34,955 nt of DNA from an uncultured Oscillospiraceae bacterium (GTDB taxonomy: Bacteria > Bacillota > Clostridia > Oscillospirales > Oscillospiraceae), in the NCBI GenBank assembly GCA_947631865.1, contig CANRNF010000028.1, positions 1 to 34,955 on the forward strand. The letters run 5' to 3'. A program made the position numbers and the translations under genes. Positions 14,641 through 34,955 of this stretch are shown piece after piece. The notes beneath the pieces were generated by a model. It worked only from the letters and a program-made list of their open reading frames with translations, searched no databases and was not told the origin of the DNA. Within the stretch, counting starts at the first letter, position 1. The number at the start of each line of letters is the position of its first letter.

Positions 14641-14727
14641 GCGGGGTTGCTGGAATTGGCAGACAGGCAGGCTTGAGGTGCCTGTGTTCATCAGGACGTG
14701 TGGGTTCAAGTCCCATACCCCGCACCA
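14641..14727 (+). tRNA. tRNA-Leu (anticodon GAG)
   Basis: An 87-base gene including encoded CCA. Acceptor arms GCGGGGT and ACCCCGC pair; the anticodon stem is CAGGC/GCCTG with loop TTGAGGT, giving anticodon GAG, which reads CUU/CUC leucine codons. The long variable arm and TTCAAGT T-loop are typical of class II tRNA-Leu. A terminator begins at its last base. Confidence 0.95.
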
Positions 14728-14789: not shown

Positions 14790-15725
14790 ATGACGTTGCT
14801 CATAATACTTATCGTGATAGCCGCGGTGGTCCTGGCGGTGAGCTATGCCGCCTATCGCATCCCGTTCTATCATCCCGACCACGGGGAGAGCCCCTATGAC
14901 CTGCCCCCGGAGGAGCAGTATGACCCCTACCGGGAGACTATGACGGCGCTGATCCGCGAGATGGACGCCGTCCCCTTTGAGGCGGCGGAGATCACAGGAT
15001 ATGACGGCGCCAAGCTCTATGGCCGCTGCTATCCTGCTCGCGACGGCGCGCCCGTGCTCATCGGGTTCCACGGCTTCAAGAGCACCGCTCTGCGGGATAT
15101 GTGCGGGGCCGGGAAGCTGGCGCGGCAGATGGGTCTGAACGCCATTTTCGTGGACCAGCGGTCCCACGGAAAGAGCGACGGCAAGACCATCTCCTTCGGC
15201 GTGAAGGAGCGGTTCGACTGCCTGAGCTGGGCCAAGTACGCCGCCCAGCGCTGGCCCGGCAGCCCCATCGTTCTGGTGGGCGTATCCATGGGCGCCGCCA
15301 CGGTGCTGATGAGCTCCGACCTGGACCTGCCCCCGGAGGTGAAGGGCATCATCGCCGACTGCCCCTACTCCGACCCCTCCGCCATCATCAAGAAGGTGGG
15401 GCGGGACAGCATGGGCGCCGCGTCCATCCTGCTCTATCCCTTCATCCTGCTGGGCGCCAAGCTGTACGGCGGCTTCGGTCTGACGGCCGCTGCCCCGGTG
15501 AAGGCGGTGCGCCATGCCAAGGTGCCCATCCTGCTCATCCACGGCGAGGACGACCGGTTCGTCCCCTGCGACATGAGCCGGGAGATATACGACGCCTGCG
15601 TGAGTCCCAAGACTCGCGTCACTATCCCCAATGCGCCTCACGCCATCGCCTACATCCTGGACCCGGACAAGTACGCCCAGGCCGTCCGCTCGTTCCTGGC
15701 ATCGCTTGGACTGGATGTGAAGTGA
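14790..15725 (+). CDS. Membrane-anchored alpha/beta hydrolase
   Basis: A 311-residue protein with one N-terminal membrane helix (MTLLIILIVIAAVVLAVSYA) followed by an alpha/beta-hydrolase fold. The oxyanion region is VLIGFHGFKS, the nucleophile elbow GVSMGAA carries the catalytic Ser, the acid is probably the Asp in LLIHGEDDRFVP, and the His lies in IPNAPHAIAYI. It resembles the BAAT/acyl-hydrolase-like and 'alpha/beta hydrolase' proteins common in Clostridia; the natural ester or peptide substrate is unknown. The ATG at 14790 follows GGGGGCGC. The open frame upstream crosses the tRNA and its terminator and was rejected. No clear promoter was identified between the tRNA terminator and the start. 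Confidence 0.87.
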   Translation: MTLLIILIVIAAVVLAVSYAAYRIPFYHPDHGESPYDLPPEEQYDPYRETMTALIREMDAVPFEAAEITGYDGAKLYGRCYPARDGAPVLIGFHGFKSTALRDMCGAGKLARQMGLNAIFVDQRSHGKSDGKTISFGVKERFDCLSWAKYAAQRWPGSPIVLVGVSMGAATVLMSSDLDLPPEVKGIIADCPYSDPSAIIKKVGRDSMGAASILLYPFILLGAKLYGGFGLTAAAPVKAVRHAKVPILLIHGEDDRFVPCDMSREIYDACVSPKTRVTIPNAPHAIAYILDPDKYAQAVRSFLASLGLDVK

Positions 15726-15746
15726 ACTCAAAAGAATATGAAATGA

Positions 15747-15769
15747 CCGGAGGCGTTGCACGCCTCCGG
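15747..15769. terminator. Hairpin between the hydrolase and the minus-strand low-GC operon
   Basis: A 10-bp stem, CCGGAGGCGT (15747-15756) with ACGCCTCCGG (15760-15769), loop TGC. T tracts are weak on both sides (TCATTTCAT on the minus strand). It probably ends both convergent units and marks the left edge of the low-GC stretch. Confidence 0.5.
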
Positions 15770-15778
15770 CTAAAAATA

Positions 15779-15946
15779 TTACCTTCTCTTGCGCTTGGAC
15801 GTTCCAAACATACCTTTCCATAGCATGTTCTGTGCCTTTCGCTTTCTCCCGGCTTTTGTTGTTGGTATGCCAGTTGCCCTTGCTACTTTCTGCTTTGCGC
15901 TGGTGATCCCCAGCGCACGTTTCCAGCTAAATCCGCCAAATGACAT
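15779..15946 (-). CDS. Small basic protein of unknown function (55 residues)
   Basis: A short open frame that fills the space after the channel gene. It begins MSFGGFSWKRALGIT and ends GTSKRKRR; 16 of 55 residues are Lys or Arg, and the tryptophans and Gly-Pro-Thr core suggest a small nucleic-acid- or membrane-associated peptide. GAGG lies eight bases before the ATG and overlaps the channel's stop region, with only nine bases between the genes, so it is probably translated from the same message. No family can be assigned with confidence. The good ribosome site, tight packing and shared low GC argue that it is real. Confidence 0.65.
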   Translation of the reverse strand: MSFGGFSWKRALGITSAKQKVARATGIPTTKAGRKRKAQNMLWKGMFGTSKRKRR

Positions 15947-15955
15947 CTGTAATCC

Positions 15956-16675
15956 TCATTTCTTGATCTGATCCATATACCCAGCGGTAATGATACCTGC
16001 GGGGAGGGCGACGATTGCAATGCCGACAAAAGATGACACCATCGTCACTATCCTGCCTGCTGTCGTCACCGGGTATATATCACCATATCCCATTGTTGTA
16101 AGACTCACGGTAGCCCAATAGATGGCTTCAAAGAAATTGGAAAACGTGTCAGGTTCCACGTTAAAAATTATCAGCGCGGAAATGAGCACATACCCAACGG
16201 CCAATGAGCAGACTGCCAAGAGCGGGGCTTTTTGTGACTTCATGACTGATGCTATTATCTGCACACTTCTGGCATAGCGGAGCATTTTGAACGACCGGAA
16301 TACTCTGAATGTACGGAACAAGCGAAATAGCTTTATCAGTCTGAGGCCGGGGAAAAGGGAGGTAAACTCTGGGAGTATCGCCAAAAGGTCCACGATGGCC
16401 AGCGGCGTAAAAGGATAAAGGACAAACGAGGCGGCTCCGTGTTTTAGTTTCAAATCGGCAGTTGCGAGCCGCATGACATAGTCTAAAATGAAGCAAGCCG
16501 TGGCAACGGCGTTGATAGCCGAAAAGATACCATTCGTTCCCTTGAAAGCCAGTGGGACAAGGCTGGCGATAATAAGGCACATCATACACAGGTCGTAGAC
16601 TTTACTTGCCTTGTCCCCCTCGTTGGCGACCTCTATTATCTCAAATATTCTCTTACGTATCTGTCTCTTTGGCAT
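15956..16675 (-). CDS. Voltage-sensor-type potassium ion channel
   Basis: A 239-residue six-helix channel subunit. After a charged N-terminus, hydrophobic segments lie at about residues 28-45, 52-70, 84-104, the S4 helix at 110-135, S5 at 150-172 and S6 at 205-232. S4 carries eight basic residues exactly three apart (R112, K115, R118, R121, R124, R127, K130, R133). The pore loop WATVSLTTMGYGD contains the K+ selectivity filter TTMGYGD (193-199), and S6 has the hinge VALPAG. Such channels pass K+ in response to membrane voltage. The start overlaps the 3' end of the preceding gene by 23 bases, so the two are coupled. Base composition matches its operon neighbours, not the flanking genes. Confidence 0.9.
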   Translation of the reverse strand: MPKRQIRKRIFEIIEVANEGDKASKVYDLCMMCLIIASLVPLAFKGTNGIFSAINAVATACFILDYVMRLATADLKLKHGAASFVLYPFTPLAIVDLLAILPEFTSLFPGLRLIKLFRLFRTFRVFRSFKMLRYARSVQIIASVMKSQKAPLLAVCSLAVGYVLISALIIFNVEPDTFSNFFEAIYWATVSLTTMGYGDIYPVTTAGRIVTMVSSFVGIAIVALPAGIITAGYMDQIKK

Positions 16676-17438
16676 TTTCTTTTTTCGCTTTCTGCGCTTG
16701 ATTCAATGCCCTGGTCACTTTCTTTTTTGCGTCAGCAGCTTTCTCGTCATCTAGCACTTCCCGCTTAATAACTTCTTCCAGGATTATCTTTCTGAGGTCT
16801 TCGTTTGGTACTTTAGCATCTGCGGAGATTTTACGGAGAGCCTTTCTCACGACATCAAGCACCGGGTCAGTCAGCAAAATCTGGCCAATAGTAAAGCGGT
16901 TGACAAACTGCTGCTGTGTCCGATATTCGTCAAGGGAAGATTTGTTTCCTTTAGAGATAGACTCTTTGGACAGATAGTACAGCATCTCCAGGTCATGCTG
17001 TTTCTTTGCACTCAATTCGCGGAAGTCAAACTCATACACCAAATCGGCGACGATGGGTTTTCCAAAAATGATGGAGTACACTTTCCATGTGACGGCATTT
17101 GTCAATATAACCCACTCAATGCCGGAATTAGAGCCGTAATCTACAGCTTGCTTGATATGCTGGTCTTTTAGTTCAAGACCAGCCGCCTTTGCTTCTATCA
17201 ATAGGCGCGGTTTGCCGTCGATCTTAACTGCGAGGTCACAGTAGGTTTTCTTGATGGCAAATTCAGAGGTTATTTCATTGAACTTGTCATAGCCAAACAC
17301 ATCTGCGAGGATATCAGAAATGATCATTACTGTATCGCTCTCGTTGATGTCCTTGTCCCGGGCGGCCCTTACGATAGGCTGGAATCTCTTTAGCCCAGCA
17401 GTCAGCCGCTCTTTCGTTTTTGCCGGAATATTAACCAT
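16653..17438 (-). CDS. HsdR_N-like PD-(D/E)XK nuclease-fold protein
   Basis: A 261-residue soluble protein related to the N-terminal domain of type I restriction endonuclease subunit R, found as a stand-alone protein in many bacteria. Residues of about 28-120 hold the fold: NESDTV (E33), then TYCDLAVKIDGK with D68, and LLIEAKAAG with E82-A-K84, which is the D...ExK metal-binding pattern. LKDQHIKQAVDYG and IEWVILTNAVTWKVY follow, as in HsdR_N. The C-terminal ~100 residues are helical and Lys-rich, ending QAQKAKKENAKETDT. No helicase domain, methylase or specificity subunit is present. The ATG at 17438 follows GAGAGGG; the frame is open further upstream. It is first in a three-gene operon with the channel and the basic peptide. 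Confidence 0.82.
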   Translation of the reverse strand: MVNIPAKTKERLTAGLKRFQPIVRAARDKDINESDTVMIISDILADVFGYDKFNEITSEFAIKKTYCDLAVKIDGKPRLLIEAKAAGLELKDQHIKQAVDYGSNSGIEWVILTNAVTWKVYSIIFGKPIVADLVYEFDFRELSAKKQHDLEMLYYLSKESISKGNKSSLDEYRTQQQFVNRFTIGQILLTDPVLDVVRKALRKISADAKVPNEDLRKIILEEVIKREVLDDEKAADAKKKVTRALNQAQKAKKENAKETDT

Positions 17439-17504
17439 GATCGCGCCCTCTCTTTCATGTTCAGCATTTAGCATCTTAGCTAAATTATCAAAATCACCTT
17501 TTAT

Positions 17505-17533
17505 AAAATAGCACAGTTTTCCACACATAGCAA
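17505..17533 (-). promoter_or_regulatory. Possible promoter of the nuclease-like/channel operon
   Basis: On the minus strand: -35 TTGCTA (17528-17533), 17-base spacer, -10 TATTTT (17505-17510), 67 bases before the chosen start. Both boxes differ from consensus and the AT-rich context makes chance matches likely. Confidence 0.45.
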
Positions 17534-17559
17534 GAATGTGGCGTTTTTTCATTTTCCTG

Positions 17560-17587
17560 TTGACATCCGCGGAAAAGGGAGTATAAT
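17560..17587 (+). promoter_or_regulatory. Promoter of cysK
   Basis: Consensus -35 TTGACA (17560-17565), 16-base spacer, consensus -10 TATAAT (17582-17587). The -35 is preceded by CCTG, exactly as at the nifS promoter (CCTGTTGACA in both). Confidence 0.88.
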
Positions 17588-17604
17588 TACAAGACAAGGA
17601 GAAA

Positions 17605-17626
17605 TCCTATTAAACCAATAGGAAAT
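17605..17626. promoter_or_regulatory. Candidate Rrf2/CymR-type operator in the cysK leader
   Basis: A 7-bp dyad TCCTATT (17605-17611) and AATAGGA (17617-17623), spacer AAACC, continuing as AATA to give TAGGAAATA. It lies about 15 bases downstream of the expected transcription start and just before the ribosome site, where a bound repressor would block transcription or elongation. Similar TCCTA, AAACC and TAGGAAATA elements occur at the nifS promoter. Confidence 0.6.
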
Positions 17627-17641
17627 AAGGAGATTTGAAAG

Positions 17642-18571
17642 ATGGCTATCTACAAGTCCTTTACCGAACTGGTGGGGAACACCCCGCTGCTGGAACTGAC
17701 CAACCTGGAGAAGAAGCTGGGCCTGAAAGCCAAGGTCGTGGCGAAGCTGGAGTATTTCAACCCCGCCGGGTCCGTGAAGGACCGCATCGCCAAGGCCATG
17801 ATCGAGGACGCGGAGGCGTCCGGGAAGCTGAAGCCCGGCGCGGTGATCGTGGAGCCCACCTCCGGGAACACTGGCATCGGCCTGGCCGCCGTGGCGGCCG
17901 CCAAGGGTTACCGGGTGATACTCACCATGCCGGAGACCATGAGCGTGGAGCGCCGGAACCTTCTCAAGGCCTACGGCGCGGAGCTGGTGCTCACCGAGGG
18001 GGCCAAGGGCATGAAGGGCGCCATCGCCAAGGCGGACGAGATCGCCGCCCAGACCCCGGGGGCGTTCATCCCCGGCCAGTTCGTGAACCCGGCCAACCCG
18101 GCGGCCCACAAGGCCACCACCGGCCCGGAGATATGGAAGGATTCCGAGGGGACGGTGGACATTTTCGTGGCCGGCGTGGGCACTGGTGGTACCCTGACAG
18201 GCGTGGGGGAGTACCTGAAGGAGCAGAAGCCCTCTGTGAAGGTGGTGGCCGTGGAGCCCGCCTCCTCCCCGGTGCTCAGCAAGGGCGTGGCCGGCGCGCA
18301 CAAGATCCAGGGCATCGGCGCGGGCTTCGTGCCTGACGTGCTCAACACGAAGGTCTACGACGAGATCATCCCCGTGGAGAACGAGGACGCCTTTGCCCTG
18401 GGCCGGGAGCTGGGCCGGACCGAGGGCATCCTGGTGGGCATCTCCGCCGGCGCGGCCCTCTGGGCGGCCATCGAGCTGGCCAAGCGGCCCGAGAACGAGG
18501 GCAAGACCATCGTGGCCCTGCTGCCGGATACGGGGGATAGATATTTGTCCACACCGATGTTCCAGGAATAA
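17642..18571 (+). CDS. cysK: Cysteine synthase (O-acetylserine sulfhydrylase)
   Basis: A 309-residue fold-type II PLP enzyme that makes cysteine from O-acetylserine and sulfide. The Schiff-base lysine is K46 in NPAGSVKDR; the substrate loop is [26 protein letters not shown] is the phosphate-binding loop; [13 protein letters not shown] and VGISAGAA complete the OASS signature. Length and start ([19 protein letters not shown]) match CysK. An AAGGAG site lies before the ATG. It is probably monocistronic. Its product is the substrate of the desulfurase NifS, and the operator-like dyad in the leader suggests common control. In Bacillus, CysK also binds the regulator CymR; whether that applies here is unknown. 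Confidence 0.95.
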
Positions 18572-29795: not shown

Positions 29796-31064
29796 TCAGA
29801 TGTGTTCCCCTATGGCCCCCGGCGGGGCGGAAGGGGGCTCCTCCGGCGTTTCCTCCGGGGCGTCCGCCATGGACATGGCGGTATAGACCGTGACAAGCGC
29901 CAGGGCGAACAGGTTGGCGATAGCGCCGTAGCGCATGGGCAGCAGGTAGCGCATTTTGAGGTATGCGTGATAGCCCAGCAGGGAGCCGAAGCTGACGCAC
30001 AGGGCCGCCGGGGCGAAGGCGGGGGCCGACACCGCCAGCACCACCGTCAGGATATCTGCCATGAAGAAGTACCGGTCATGCATGTGGGGCAGGAAGAAGG
30101 GCACCCCGATGCAGAACAGCAGCGCCGCGCCGAAGAGGGTCCTGTTGTTGAGCTTCTTCAGCCGGATCACCAGCCACACGTACAGGGCGCTGCAGAAGAA
30201 GAACGTCATGGCGATGCCCACCCGGGCCGCCCCGGTCTTGGACAGGGCGTCGAAGTTGAACAGGGCGTAGAGGGTGGAGGCGTTGTAGTTGAGCCCGTCG
30301 CCGATGGTGCCCGTGTTGCGCAGGTACAGCGTCAGTAGCTCCCAGAAGCCCCGGCCCGCGAACACGGCGGGGAGGATGGAGGCGATGTACACCGCCGGGA
30401 AGAGGAAGATGTGCCGGATCCTGATGCGGCCGGAGACGAGAAACAGGAAGTACACCGGCAGCAGGAAGATGCCCTGGAGCTTGAAGGACACGCTCAGGGC
30501 CGCCATGGCCACGCTGAGGCCGGGCCGCTCGTCCAGCGCCAGGTACACCGCCAGCACGGCGAAGGCGCCGTAGATGCTGTCGCACTGGCCCCAGAGAGCG
30601 CCATTCAATATCACCGAGGGCAGCCACAGCACCAGCAGAAACGCGGAGAGCTTTCGCCCGGGGTCCCCCTTGGTGAGCACGCCTGTAAGGCGCATGGCCC
30701 CCCAGGCCAGCACCACGTCAAAGAAGATGCTCAAAAGCTTCACGAGATAGAGGTCGTAGATCTCGCTCACGGAGAACAGGGACAGGAAGTAGAGATAGGG
30801 CACGTTGTAGTTGCAGCTCCATATCTCCTGGCCCAGGCCCTTCCAGGGACCAGCCTCCCGCAGGGACTGTATCCACACCTTGACCCAGTCCTGGTAGTCC
30901 AGGGTCTCGTAGGTGAGCAGGCAGTAGCGCAGCACAAAGGCCAGCGGCACCAGGACCAGCGCCGGGAACAGCCGGTTTTTATCCTTCAAAAGCCCCTCCC
31001 GCCAGAGGAGCCACAGCGCGAAGAGAAGCTCAAAATAGAGCATGATGGTCGCCCGATAGTCCAA
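29796..31064 (-). CDS. Polytopic GT-C-type glycosyltransferase (Gpi18-like mannosyltransferase)
   Basis: A 422-residue membrane protein with about ten helices. It has an early luminal acidic pair in TYETLDYQDWVKVWIQSL, GALWGQCDSIYGAFAVLAVY, and FFLPHMHDRYFFMADIL, which together match the GT-C fold family related to Gpi18-like/DUF2029 mannosyltransferases. These use polyprenyl-phosphate sugars to glycosylate lipids or polymers on the outside of the membrane; the acceptor is unknown. The C-terminal tail is Pro/Glu-rich (EETPEEPPSAPPGA). A TTG at 31064 was chosen as start because AGGGGG lies seven bases upstream; the first ATG (31043) lacks a ribosome site. A terminator-like hairpin lies directly upstream of the ribosome site. 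Confidence 0.82.
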   Translation of the reverse strand: MDYRATIMLYFELLFALWLLWREGLLKDKNRLFPALVLVPLAFVLRYCLLTYETLDYQDWVKVWIQSLREAGPWKGLGQEIWSCNYNVPYLYFLSLFSVSEIYDLYLVKLLSIFFDVVLAWGAMRLTGVLTKGDPGRKLSAFLLVLWLPSVILNGALWGQCDSIYGAFAVLAVYLALDERPGLSVAMAALSVSFKLQGIFLLPVYFLFLVSGRIRIRHIFLFPAVYIASILPAVFAGRGFWELLTLYLRNTGTIGDGLNYNASTLYALFNFDALSKTGAARVGIAMTFFFCSALYVWLVIRLKKLNNRTLFGAALLFCIGVPFFLPHMHDRYFFMADILTVVLAVSAPAFAPAALCVSFGSLLGYHAYLKMRYLLPMRYGAIANLFALALVTVYTAMSMADAPEETPEEPPSAPPGAIGEHI

Positions 31065-31083
31065 GGAAGATCCCCCTTACAGG

Positions 31084-31110
31084 AAAAAGGCGGCGGAAAA
31101 GCTCCGCCGC
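31084..31110 (-). terminator. Terminator-like hairpin in front of the GT-C gene
   Basis: On the minus strand, an 8-bp stem (31103-31110 with 31090-31097) and a five-base loop are followed by CTTTTT (31084-31089), 20 bases before the TTG start. It could be an attenuator of the GT-C gene or a stop for antisense RNA from the rpoB promoter region. Confidence 0.55.
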
Positions 31111-31133
31111 GGGAAAAGTTCATAAAAATTGTC

Positions 31134-31163
31134 TTGACAGGTATGAATTAAAAATGATAGAAT
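31134..31163 (+). promoter_or_regulatory. Promoter of rpoB
   Basis: Consensus -35 TTGACA (31134-31139), 18-base spacer, -10 TAGAAT (31158-31163). The region is strongly AT-rich. It leaves a leader of roughly 140 bases before the start codon. Confidence 0.75.
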
Positions 31164-31180
31164 AATTTGCTATGCTCAGA

Positions 31181-31204
31181 AGGATGGGCATTAGCACCCA
31201 TCCT
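31181..31204 (+). promoter_or_regulatory. Stem-loop in the rpoB leader
   Basis: An 8-bp perfect stem, AGGATGGG (31181-31188) with CCCATCCT (31197-31204), loop CATTAGCA, about 12 bases after the expected transcription start. It is followed by CATCGTCTTTATATT, so it could act as a weak attenuator or a 5' stabilising stem. Confidence 0.6.
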
Positions 31205-31311
31205 CATCGTCTTTATATTACCACATTCACAGAAAAAATCAAGGCGAGAGACAAAATTTGTAACAACTTACCCTGGCGTATCATCATATACCAAAGGAGT
31301 GATCGAAACAC

Positions 31312-34955
<3,644 letters not shown>

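Follow-up and report, generated by a model that had tools for sequence, protein, structure and literature searches.

The window, by which we mean the whole analysed stretch of 34,955 nucleotides from an uncultured Oscillospiraceae bacterium, contains three intact open reading frames on the minus strand that are referred to here as A, B and C. Gene A (16653–17438) encodes a stand-alone HsdR_N-type PD-(D/E)XK protein of 261 amino acids counted from the ATG at 17438, with the reading frame remaining open up to 17597, gene B (15956–16675) a predicted voltage-sensor K+ channel of 239 amino acids, and gene C (15779–15946) a basic protein of 55 amino acids belonging to a family with conserved homologues. 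A overlaps B by 23 nt and a gap of 9 nt separates B from C, which is exactly the tight packing given in the original prediction made from the letters alone. The operon ends at a hairpin resembling an intrinsic terminator (15746–15770, minus strand; a 58-nt stretch with −23 kcal/mol, z −4.96), and a search for a minus-strand consensus promoter at the operon found none. Chance reading frames could be ruled out by the purifying constraint in the homologues and by relatives of C in 16 viral contigs. As had also been predicted, the operon is low in GC: A, B and C show a GC content of 0.448, 0.479 and 0.494 and a GC3 of 0.515, 0.562 and 0.518, and GC in sliding windows across 15751–17750 is 0.44–0.49. 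The GC3 of ten of the twelve other window genes that were measured is 0.82–0.93 (0.70 and 0.64 in the remaining two). A second dip in GC, to 0.50–0.53, lies at 30751–31500.

The operon is flanked by an alpha/beta hydrolase gene (14790–15725, plus strand) and by cysK (17642–18571, plus strand), both identified by Pfam and both native, as their products are 97% and 99% identical to those of the genus-mate G307. The DNA of the flanks matches that of G307 at 94–95% identity, and between the hydrolase stop and the cysK promoter G307 has about 49 bp where the window has about 1.82 kb. Judged by this empty site, the acquired low-GC stretch runs from about 15724 to 17543 and is thus larger than the operon itself. 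Since the site is empty in G307 and the GC3 of the operon differs from that of its surroundings, it is simpler to assume a gain in the window lineage than a loss in G307, and the earlier suggestion of horizontal acquisition agrees with both observations. No repressor, integrase or other phage gene was seen within the insert and no clear target duplication at its ends, and the tRNA-Leu gene at 14641–14727 is located on the far side of the hydrolase, away from the insert junction. An intact mobile element, which we had considered, was ruled out on these grounds.

For A a Pfam scan at E ≤ 1 returned HSDR_N_2 (1.2e-10) and HSDR_N alone, and over its full length the protein matches phrog_17239 (1.3e-96), whose function is listed as unknown in PHROG. 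Residues 1–174 form the nuclease fold, an assignment made among the families shown in the fold listing, and residues 175–261 are helical. The residues D68, E82 and K84 are unchanged in 50 of 50 aligned proteins, namely the window protein and 49 chosen from 81 listed homologues, so that the predicted PD-(D/E)XK fold and its triad have held up and A carries both features of the PD-(D/E)XK HsdR_N group (fold and D...ExK triad) as far as its sequence tells. Neither Foldseek at E ≤ 0.001 nor a sequence search with A gave a match in the PDB. The homologues of A are stand-alone proteins, most of about 255–300 amino acids by open reading frame, which rules out a remnant of a type I restriction enzyme; A has no motor domain, and no HsdM or HsdS is found among its direct neighbours in the window (the channel, C, the alpha/beta hydrolase and cysK). 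Searching A, B and C with the PADLOC-DB 2.0.0 models at E ≤ 1 gave no match, and across the 50 A proteins some members showed weak matches to methyltransferase, type IIG, mads_2 and DRT models. Two further HSDR_N_2 matches, one of them below the cut-off, are present in the genome of the window (G000; C43:6103-6420 and C91:2520-2675). In a passage of one paper, an HsdR N-terminal domain protein, which we matched by name, is given as a difference between phage-resistant and phage-sensitive Campylobacter strains, without a test (PMC8713573), and a search of the open PMC full text for 'HsdR N-terminal domain' together with prophage found nothing beyond it.

The intact signature of B, consisting of the Pfam domains Ion_trans (1.4e-25) and Ion_trans_2 (2.8e-16), an S4 segment with repeated Arg/Lys and the filter TMGYGD, upholds its identification as a voltage-sensor K+ channel. 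B also matches Kv2.1 (2.4e-20) and KCNQ sequences, and GYGD, D65, D96, R118 and R121 are unchanged across a chosen subset of 21 aligned channels including that of the window. With the Ion_trans domain, the S4 charges and the K+ filter it has the sequence features of a Kv channel and is a predicted one. It matches phrog_7872 (2e-36), again with the function listed as unknown in PHROG, and its relatives in annotated phages include an 'ion transport protein' of Dulem virus 33 (64%) and of Halorubrum virus Humcor1 (30%) and an 'ion transporter' of Lactobacillus phage PLE2 (28%). Elsewhere the window genome encodes a second channel (G000:C77:6585-7310), whose frame is longer and which shares 35% identity with B.

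C shows no Pfam match over the cut-off (a single Myb-like match stays sub-threshold, E 0.13), no match to NCBIfam, PADLOC or PHROG and none in annotated phages, and its structural model is weak (pLDDT 68). Homologues occur in 7 of 300 family genomes, and C adjoins B in the window as well as in L046, L048, L079 and L359. In one locus (L102:4959-5810) C is part of a fusion protein that also has a transmembrane segment and an exported domain, a hint that C may act on the cytoplasmic side of the membrane. By eye, no lipobox or signal peptide was seen in A, B or C themselves. A fourth recurrent gene, here called D, was observed near A, B or C and encodes an exported or lipoprotein-like product with a C-terminal motif of the Ada_Zn_binding type; such genes were found by script in L006, L047, L056, L072, L079, L091, L099, L104 and L113 and by eye in L048, L082 and L418, and Pfam confirmed the motif in L091, placed it slightly below the cut-off in L113 and did not confirm it in L048. 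A C-terminal motif like that of D was also noticed by eye in an ImmA-type (Peptidase_M78) protein encoded between repressor and A (L243:2381-2884). By eye, an exported protein or lipoprotein is the first gene after A in about 17 of the 66 non-redundant viral loci (for example L256, L283, L285, L286, L295, L313, L315, L323 and L326), and A may therefore be paired with various envelope proteins besides channels.

To see where these families reside we turned to viral genomes. Scans of IMG/VR yielded 78 loci with A, 42 with B and 16 with C, which left 66 non-redundant loci for A and 38 for B (under 95% identity by ungapped end-anchored comparison; the fragments L332 and L333 are excluded from the 66). 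Repressor, integrase and channel calls were made with our own HMMs and an ORF caller, and ten proteins were checked with Pfam, which on the examples confirmed the labels S24/HTH repressor, phage integrase, resolvase and ImmA-type (Peptidase_M78). A repressor lies less than 2 kb upstream of A in 35 of the 66 loci, in 19 of them within 150 bp, and an integrase less than 3.5 kb downstream in 20; either is present in 41, both in 14 and neither in 25. With B the picture is a repressor upstream and an integrase downstream in 21 loci, a repressor only in 5, an integrase only in 4 and neither in 8, so that a repressor accompanies 26 of the 38. Thirteen of the 16 viral loci with C, which were not deduplicated, have both genes, L103 and L104 are uncalled and L111 has neither. 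The window itself has no repressor beside the operon. The same order recurs in annotated phages, as in Thermus phage Riverbug (a LexA-like regulator, A, a periplasmic protein and an integrase) and Dulem virus 33 (an XRE gene and the channel, with an integrase further along). Altogether annotated phages account for one record of A and twelve of B, eleven of these at 27–30% identity only, and plasmids for nine of A (six from Leptospira) and one of B at E ≤ 1e-30. The same slot is occupied in different phages by A alone, B alone, C alone or the exported Ada-type protein.

From these gene orders, each of A, B and C belongs to a family that is carried in the slot between repressor and integrase of temperate phages, and the window operon probably represents left-over prophage genes. 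Genes in this slot are expressed in the lysogen and some guard it. In the passages of PMC3952083 that concern the ltp gene of phage TP-J34, this gene is placed between repressor and integrase, and part of PMC7067206 describes loci next to the repressor as a common site for morons. Membership in the lysogeny slot, which was absent from the original prediction, is the best functional clue to the operon, and the slot offers a simple rule for finding more genes of this kind.

Outside of viruses the families are widespread, though sparse within any one group, which rules out a strain-specific curiosity. A is strongly matched in 2 of 300 family genomes and weakly in 5 more, and is present in 3 of 391 genomes of the class and in 9 of 198 of the family of Lysobacter dokdonensis. 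A repressor or integrase was called near A in 13 of 80 genomic loci and none was called in 67. Within the family to which the window bacterium belongs, the short channel occurs mostly as a solitary gene, and among 19 host channel loci a repressor plus integrase accompanies it in two (L072, L077), a recombinase in one and a repressor in one. Some solitary copies of B are low in GC compared to their surrounding locus (0.43/0.66 in L073, 0.44/0.63 in L076, 0.41/0.57 in L082) and others match their own locus (L080, L081, L083, L084, L086, L087). Within the genus B is found in G320, G319, G326, G308 and G302 and C in G326 and G311, at positions that differ from that of the window; no repressor or integrase was called near these copies, both G326 contigs being shorter than 4 kb. 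A tRNA gene lies within 400 bp of A or B in 6 of 24 stretches scanned (L071, L073, L082, L085, L414 and L417, the last two at one common tRNA cluster), a raw count with no control set, and these copies might be leftovers of phages integrated at tRNA genes. In three genomes (L088–L090) B is flanked by a helicase gene and by the spoIIA operon, both named by eye, where it is apparently vertically kept. The window is thus one among many copies outside a visible phage.

Besides the window, A adjoins a Kv-type channel in seven loci, which show four arrangements; the homologue of A is a close one in six of these loci and a distant one in the seventh. These comprise 5 of 80 genomic A loci, 1 of 78 viral A loci and one locus reached from the channel side. 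The channel is followed by A in a Lachnospiraceae genome (L156, filter SVGYGD) and in an uncultured bacterium (L218), A is followed by the channel in two Pedosphaera genomes (L183, L210), the genes are divergent in Lysobacter dokdonensis (L167) and they are convergent and 9 bp apart on a viral contig (L292), the latter two pairs not being operons. The remaining locus, L401, was the single case among 29 further loci obtained with the channel alignment as bait (loci given for 30 of 73 places found) and shows a distant HsdR_N protein, 27–34% identical to A, followed by a channel after a 9-bp gap. Of the proposed association outside close relatives, the part concerning A with a channel therefore stood, and the three-gene order did not; A-B-C was seen in the window only, and a three-gene system conserved as such is ruled out.

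The neighbours of A were clustered for 89 loci (the window, those from viruses, phages and plasmids, and 79 from genomes), and the recurrent ones within 1.5 kb are repressors at 7 loci, Kv-type channels at 6 with the window included, tyrosine integrases at 5 and serine recombinases at 3. By homology, channels were found within 1 kb of A in five genomic loci and one viral locus, and further out in the same 158 loci in none of either kind, the sequence compared near and far amounting to 149 and 481 kb for genomic, 149 and 382 kb for viral and 298 and 863 kb for all loci. The pore-motif scan had recovered four of the five near channels, with L156 added by homology, and a far pore-motif match in L198 was discarded by eye as it is no channel. 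Each of the eight genomes that we checked has one to three such channels, and the sole channel of G331, of G332 and of G333 is the one adjoining A; from these gene numbers a rough hand estimate of 0.15 is obtained for about 150 A loci by chance. By this comparison the neighbourhood of A and a channel is recurrent above the rough chance estimate. In L183 and L210, which are one lineage and count once, A is 80.6% and B 80.9% identical with synonymous sites saturated, suggesting that the two genes have stayed side by side; among the 13 pairs compared, dN/dS was saturated in 11. The channels involved are of dissimilar types, assigned by similarity alone: window and L156; L183, L210, L218 and L292 (37–43% identical to L292); L167; and L401. 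A channel type devoted to A was ruled out, as the 13 close type II channels from a search of one phylum have A at the bait locus only (30 of 73 places covered), and type II channels gave no match in annotated phages or plasmids. Within 1 kb of A no channel is found at 75 of the 80 genomic loci and at 77 of the 78 viral ones, contig ends included, and A is found within 2.6 kb of B in none of the 38 viral B loci.

Taken together, what had been read as a speculative local operon is now better read as stranded members of three families of temperate-phage genes, and two of these families recur as a pair. With slightly more confidence than doubt, we read A-B-C as lysogenic-conversion genes from the repressor-to-integrase slot of a temperate phage that were stranded and most likely protect the lysogen in a RexAB-like way; a role in superinfection or abortive defence is probable by analogy. 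We infer that the genes arrived from such a slot and now reside in the chromosome without their phage. The cytoplasmic A with its HsdR-type nuclease fold would recognise or cut incoming phage DNA and signal to B, B would alter membrane potential and K+ content, and the infection would then be excluded or aborted, with the small, basic and helical C as a possible accessory of the membrane step. Against the lysogenic-conversion reading speak the chromosomal A copies, most of which have no lysogeny gene, the insert without any phage gene and the empty PADLOC result. A more specific form of it, which we offer tentatively and expect to fail rather than to hold, is a two-part exclusion system of temperate phages and of bacteria from several phyla, in which a nucleic-acid sensor or nuclease with the HsdR_N fold would gate a voltage-sensor K+ channel, joined by C in places, and which would be RexAB-like in design, repeatedly assembled from unrelated parts and kept by the host after loss of the phage. 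Such coupling has against it that most A copies lack a channel, that viral B loci lack A and that the A-B-C order is confined to the window. These very counts favour the main rival, possible in our eyes though somewhat doubtful, according to which each of A, B and C is a lysogenic-conversion gene in its own right within a freely swapping slot, A perhaps restricting DNA and B perhaps acting on the membrane with no signal between them; it would also account for A, B, C or the exported Ada-type protein each being alone in the slot of different phages. It is less easily reconciled with an adjacency above rough chance that includes chromosomal loci without visible phage genes and dissimilar channels, and with A and B staying together over saturated divergence in L183/L210.

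It could also be that B is kept by the host for membrane potential or K+ balance, with the phage as its vehicle and A incidental, which we consider unlikely. Solitary B recurs among genus-mates and family members and looks vertically inherited at the spoIIA operon, a passage of PMC9898762 places the K+ transporter TrkG in rac, a cryptic prophage of E. coli, and a statement in PMC8269230 treats viral K+ channels of desert soil as putative stress-related auxiliary genes; however, phage-borne B is accompanied by a repressor at a site of superinfection genes and the window genome already has another channel. A still less probable reading, to which we give little credence, makes A a DNA-binding partner of repressor or integrase instead of a defence protein. 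The repressor within 150 bp upstream of A in 19 of 66 viral loci would fit, as would the lambda RexA protein, which also modulates the switch according to a passage in one of three papers (PMC12894663, PMC6426596, PMC6426606), but A is kept without repressor and integrase in the window and in the 67 genomic loci where none was called, and the nuclease triad is unchanged throughout the alignment.

The closest parallel to the lysogenic-conversion reading that we favour is given by RexAB-type pairs, which the relevant sections of PMC12894663, PMC6426596 and PMC6426606 describe as a cytoplasmic DNA-associated protein together with a membrane channel protein, both produced by the lysogen, with genes downstream of the repressor in lambda, CarolAnn and P. 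putida. A and B resemble these pairs (lambda, Sbash 30/31, CarolAnn 43/44, P. putida RexAB) in two-part logic and, in many phage homologues though not in the window itself, in a position next to the repressor, and they differ from them in the HsdR_N nuclease fold of A and in B being a voltage-sensor K+ channel with Ion_trans/Ion_trans_2 and GYGD instead of a four-TM protein of the RexB type. RexA-like DUF4747 was not among the matches of A at E ≤ 1, which were of the HSDR_N types only, and for relatives of RexA HHpred itself gives weak DUF4747 matches, as a passage in one of the three papers reports (PMC12894663, PMC6426596, PMC6426606). Since B lacks the RexB feature, A-B-C is not a RexAB member, but it plausibly works like one. 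Ltp-type superinfection exclusion genes have the lysogeny-module slot in common with the families of A, B and C, and the excerpts of PMC3952083 give the order integrase, ltp and a 122-aa ORF for Streptococcus thermophilus phages, with a metalloproteinase motif in TP-778. Ltp is an exported lipoprotein, and among the genes described here the D-type neighbours alone resemble it, unlike A, B and C. Compared to type I HsdR and type IIG enzymes (BpuSI, DrdV), A is short with 261 amino acids, has no other Pfam domain and stands without a modification partner among its direct neighbours. The Kcv channel of chlorella virus is not known to have a voltage sensor. The channels described here differ from virus-borne K+ channels such as Kcv and those of soil viruses by the voltage sensor, the place between repressor and integrase and the recurrent HsdR_N neighbour.

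Viral K+ channels as such have already been mentioned in print, as Kcv in the passages on chlorella viruses in PMC9405923 and in one sentence of PMC8269230 that lists K+ channel genes of desert-soil viral populations among putative stress-related auxiliary genes, and public phage records already include genes annotated as channels. PHROG 17239 and 7872 are the families matched by A and B, with role, slot and pairing not given there. In the open PMC full text we found no paper that assigns voltage-sensor K+ channels to the lysogeny module in phages of bacteria and none linking them with an HsdR_N protein. If these channels act in exclusion, membrane potential would be a battlefield of phage–phage competition, and an orphan nuclease-fold family spread across many phyla would gain a testable role. 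In L157/L158, L204 and L209 A adjoins genes that by eye look HNH-like, DUF262-like and SIR2-like, and these loci are possible other defence neighbourhoods.
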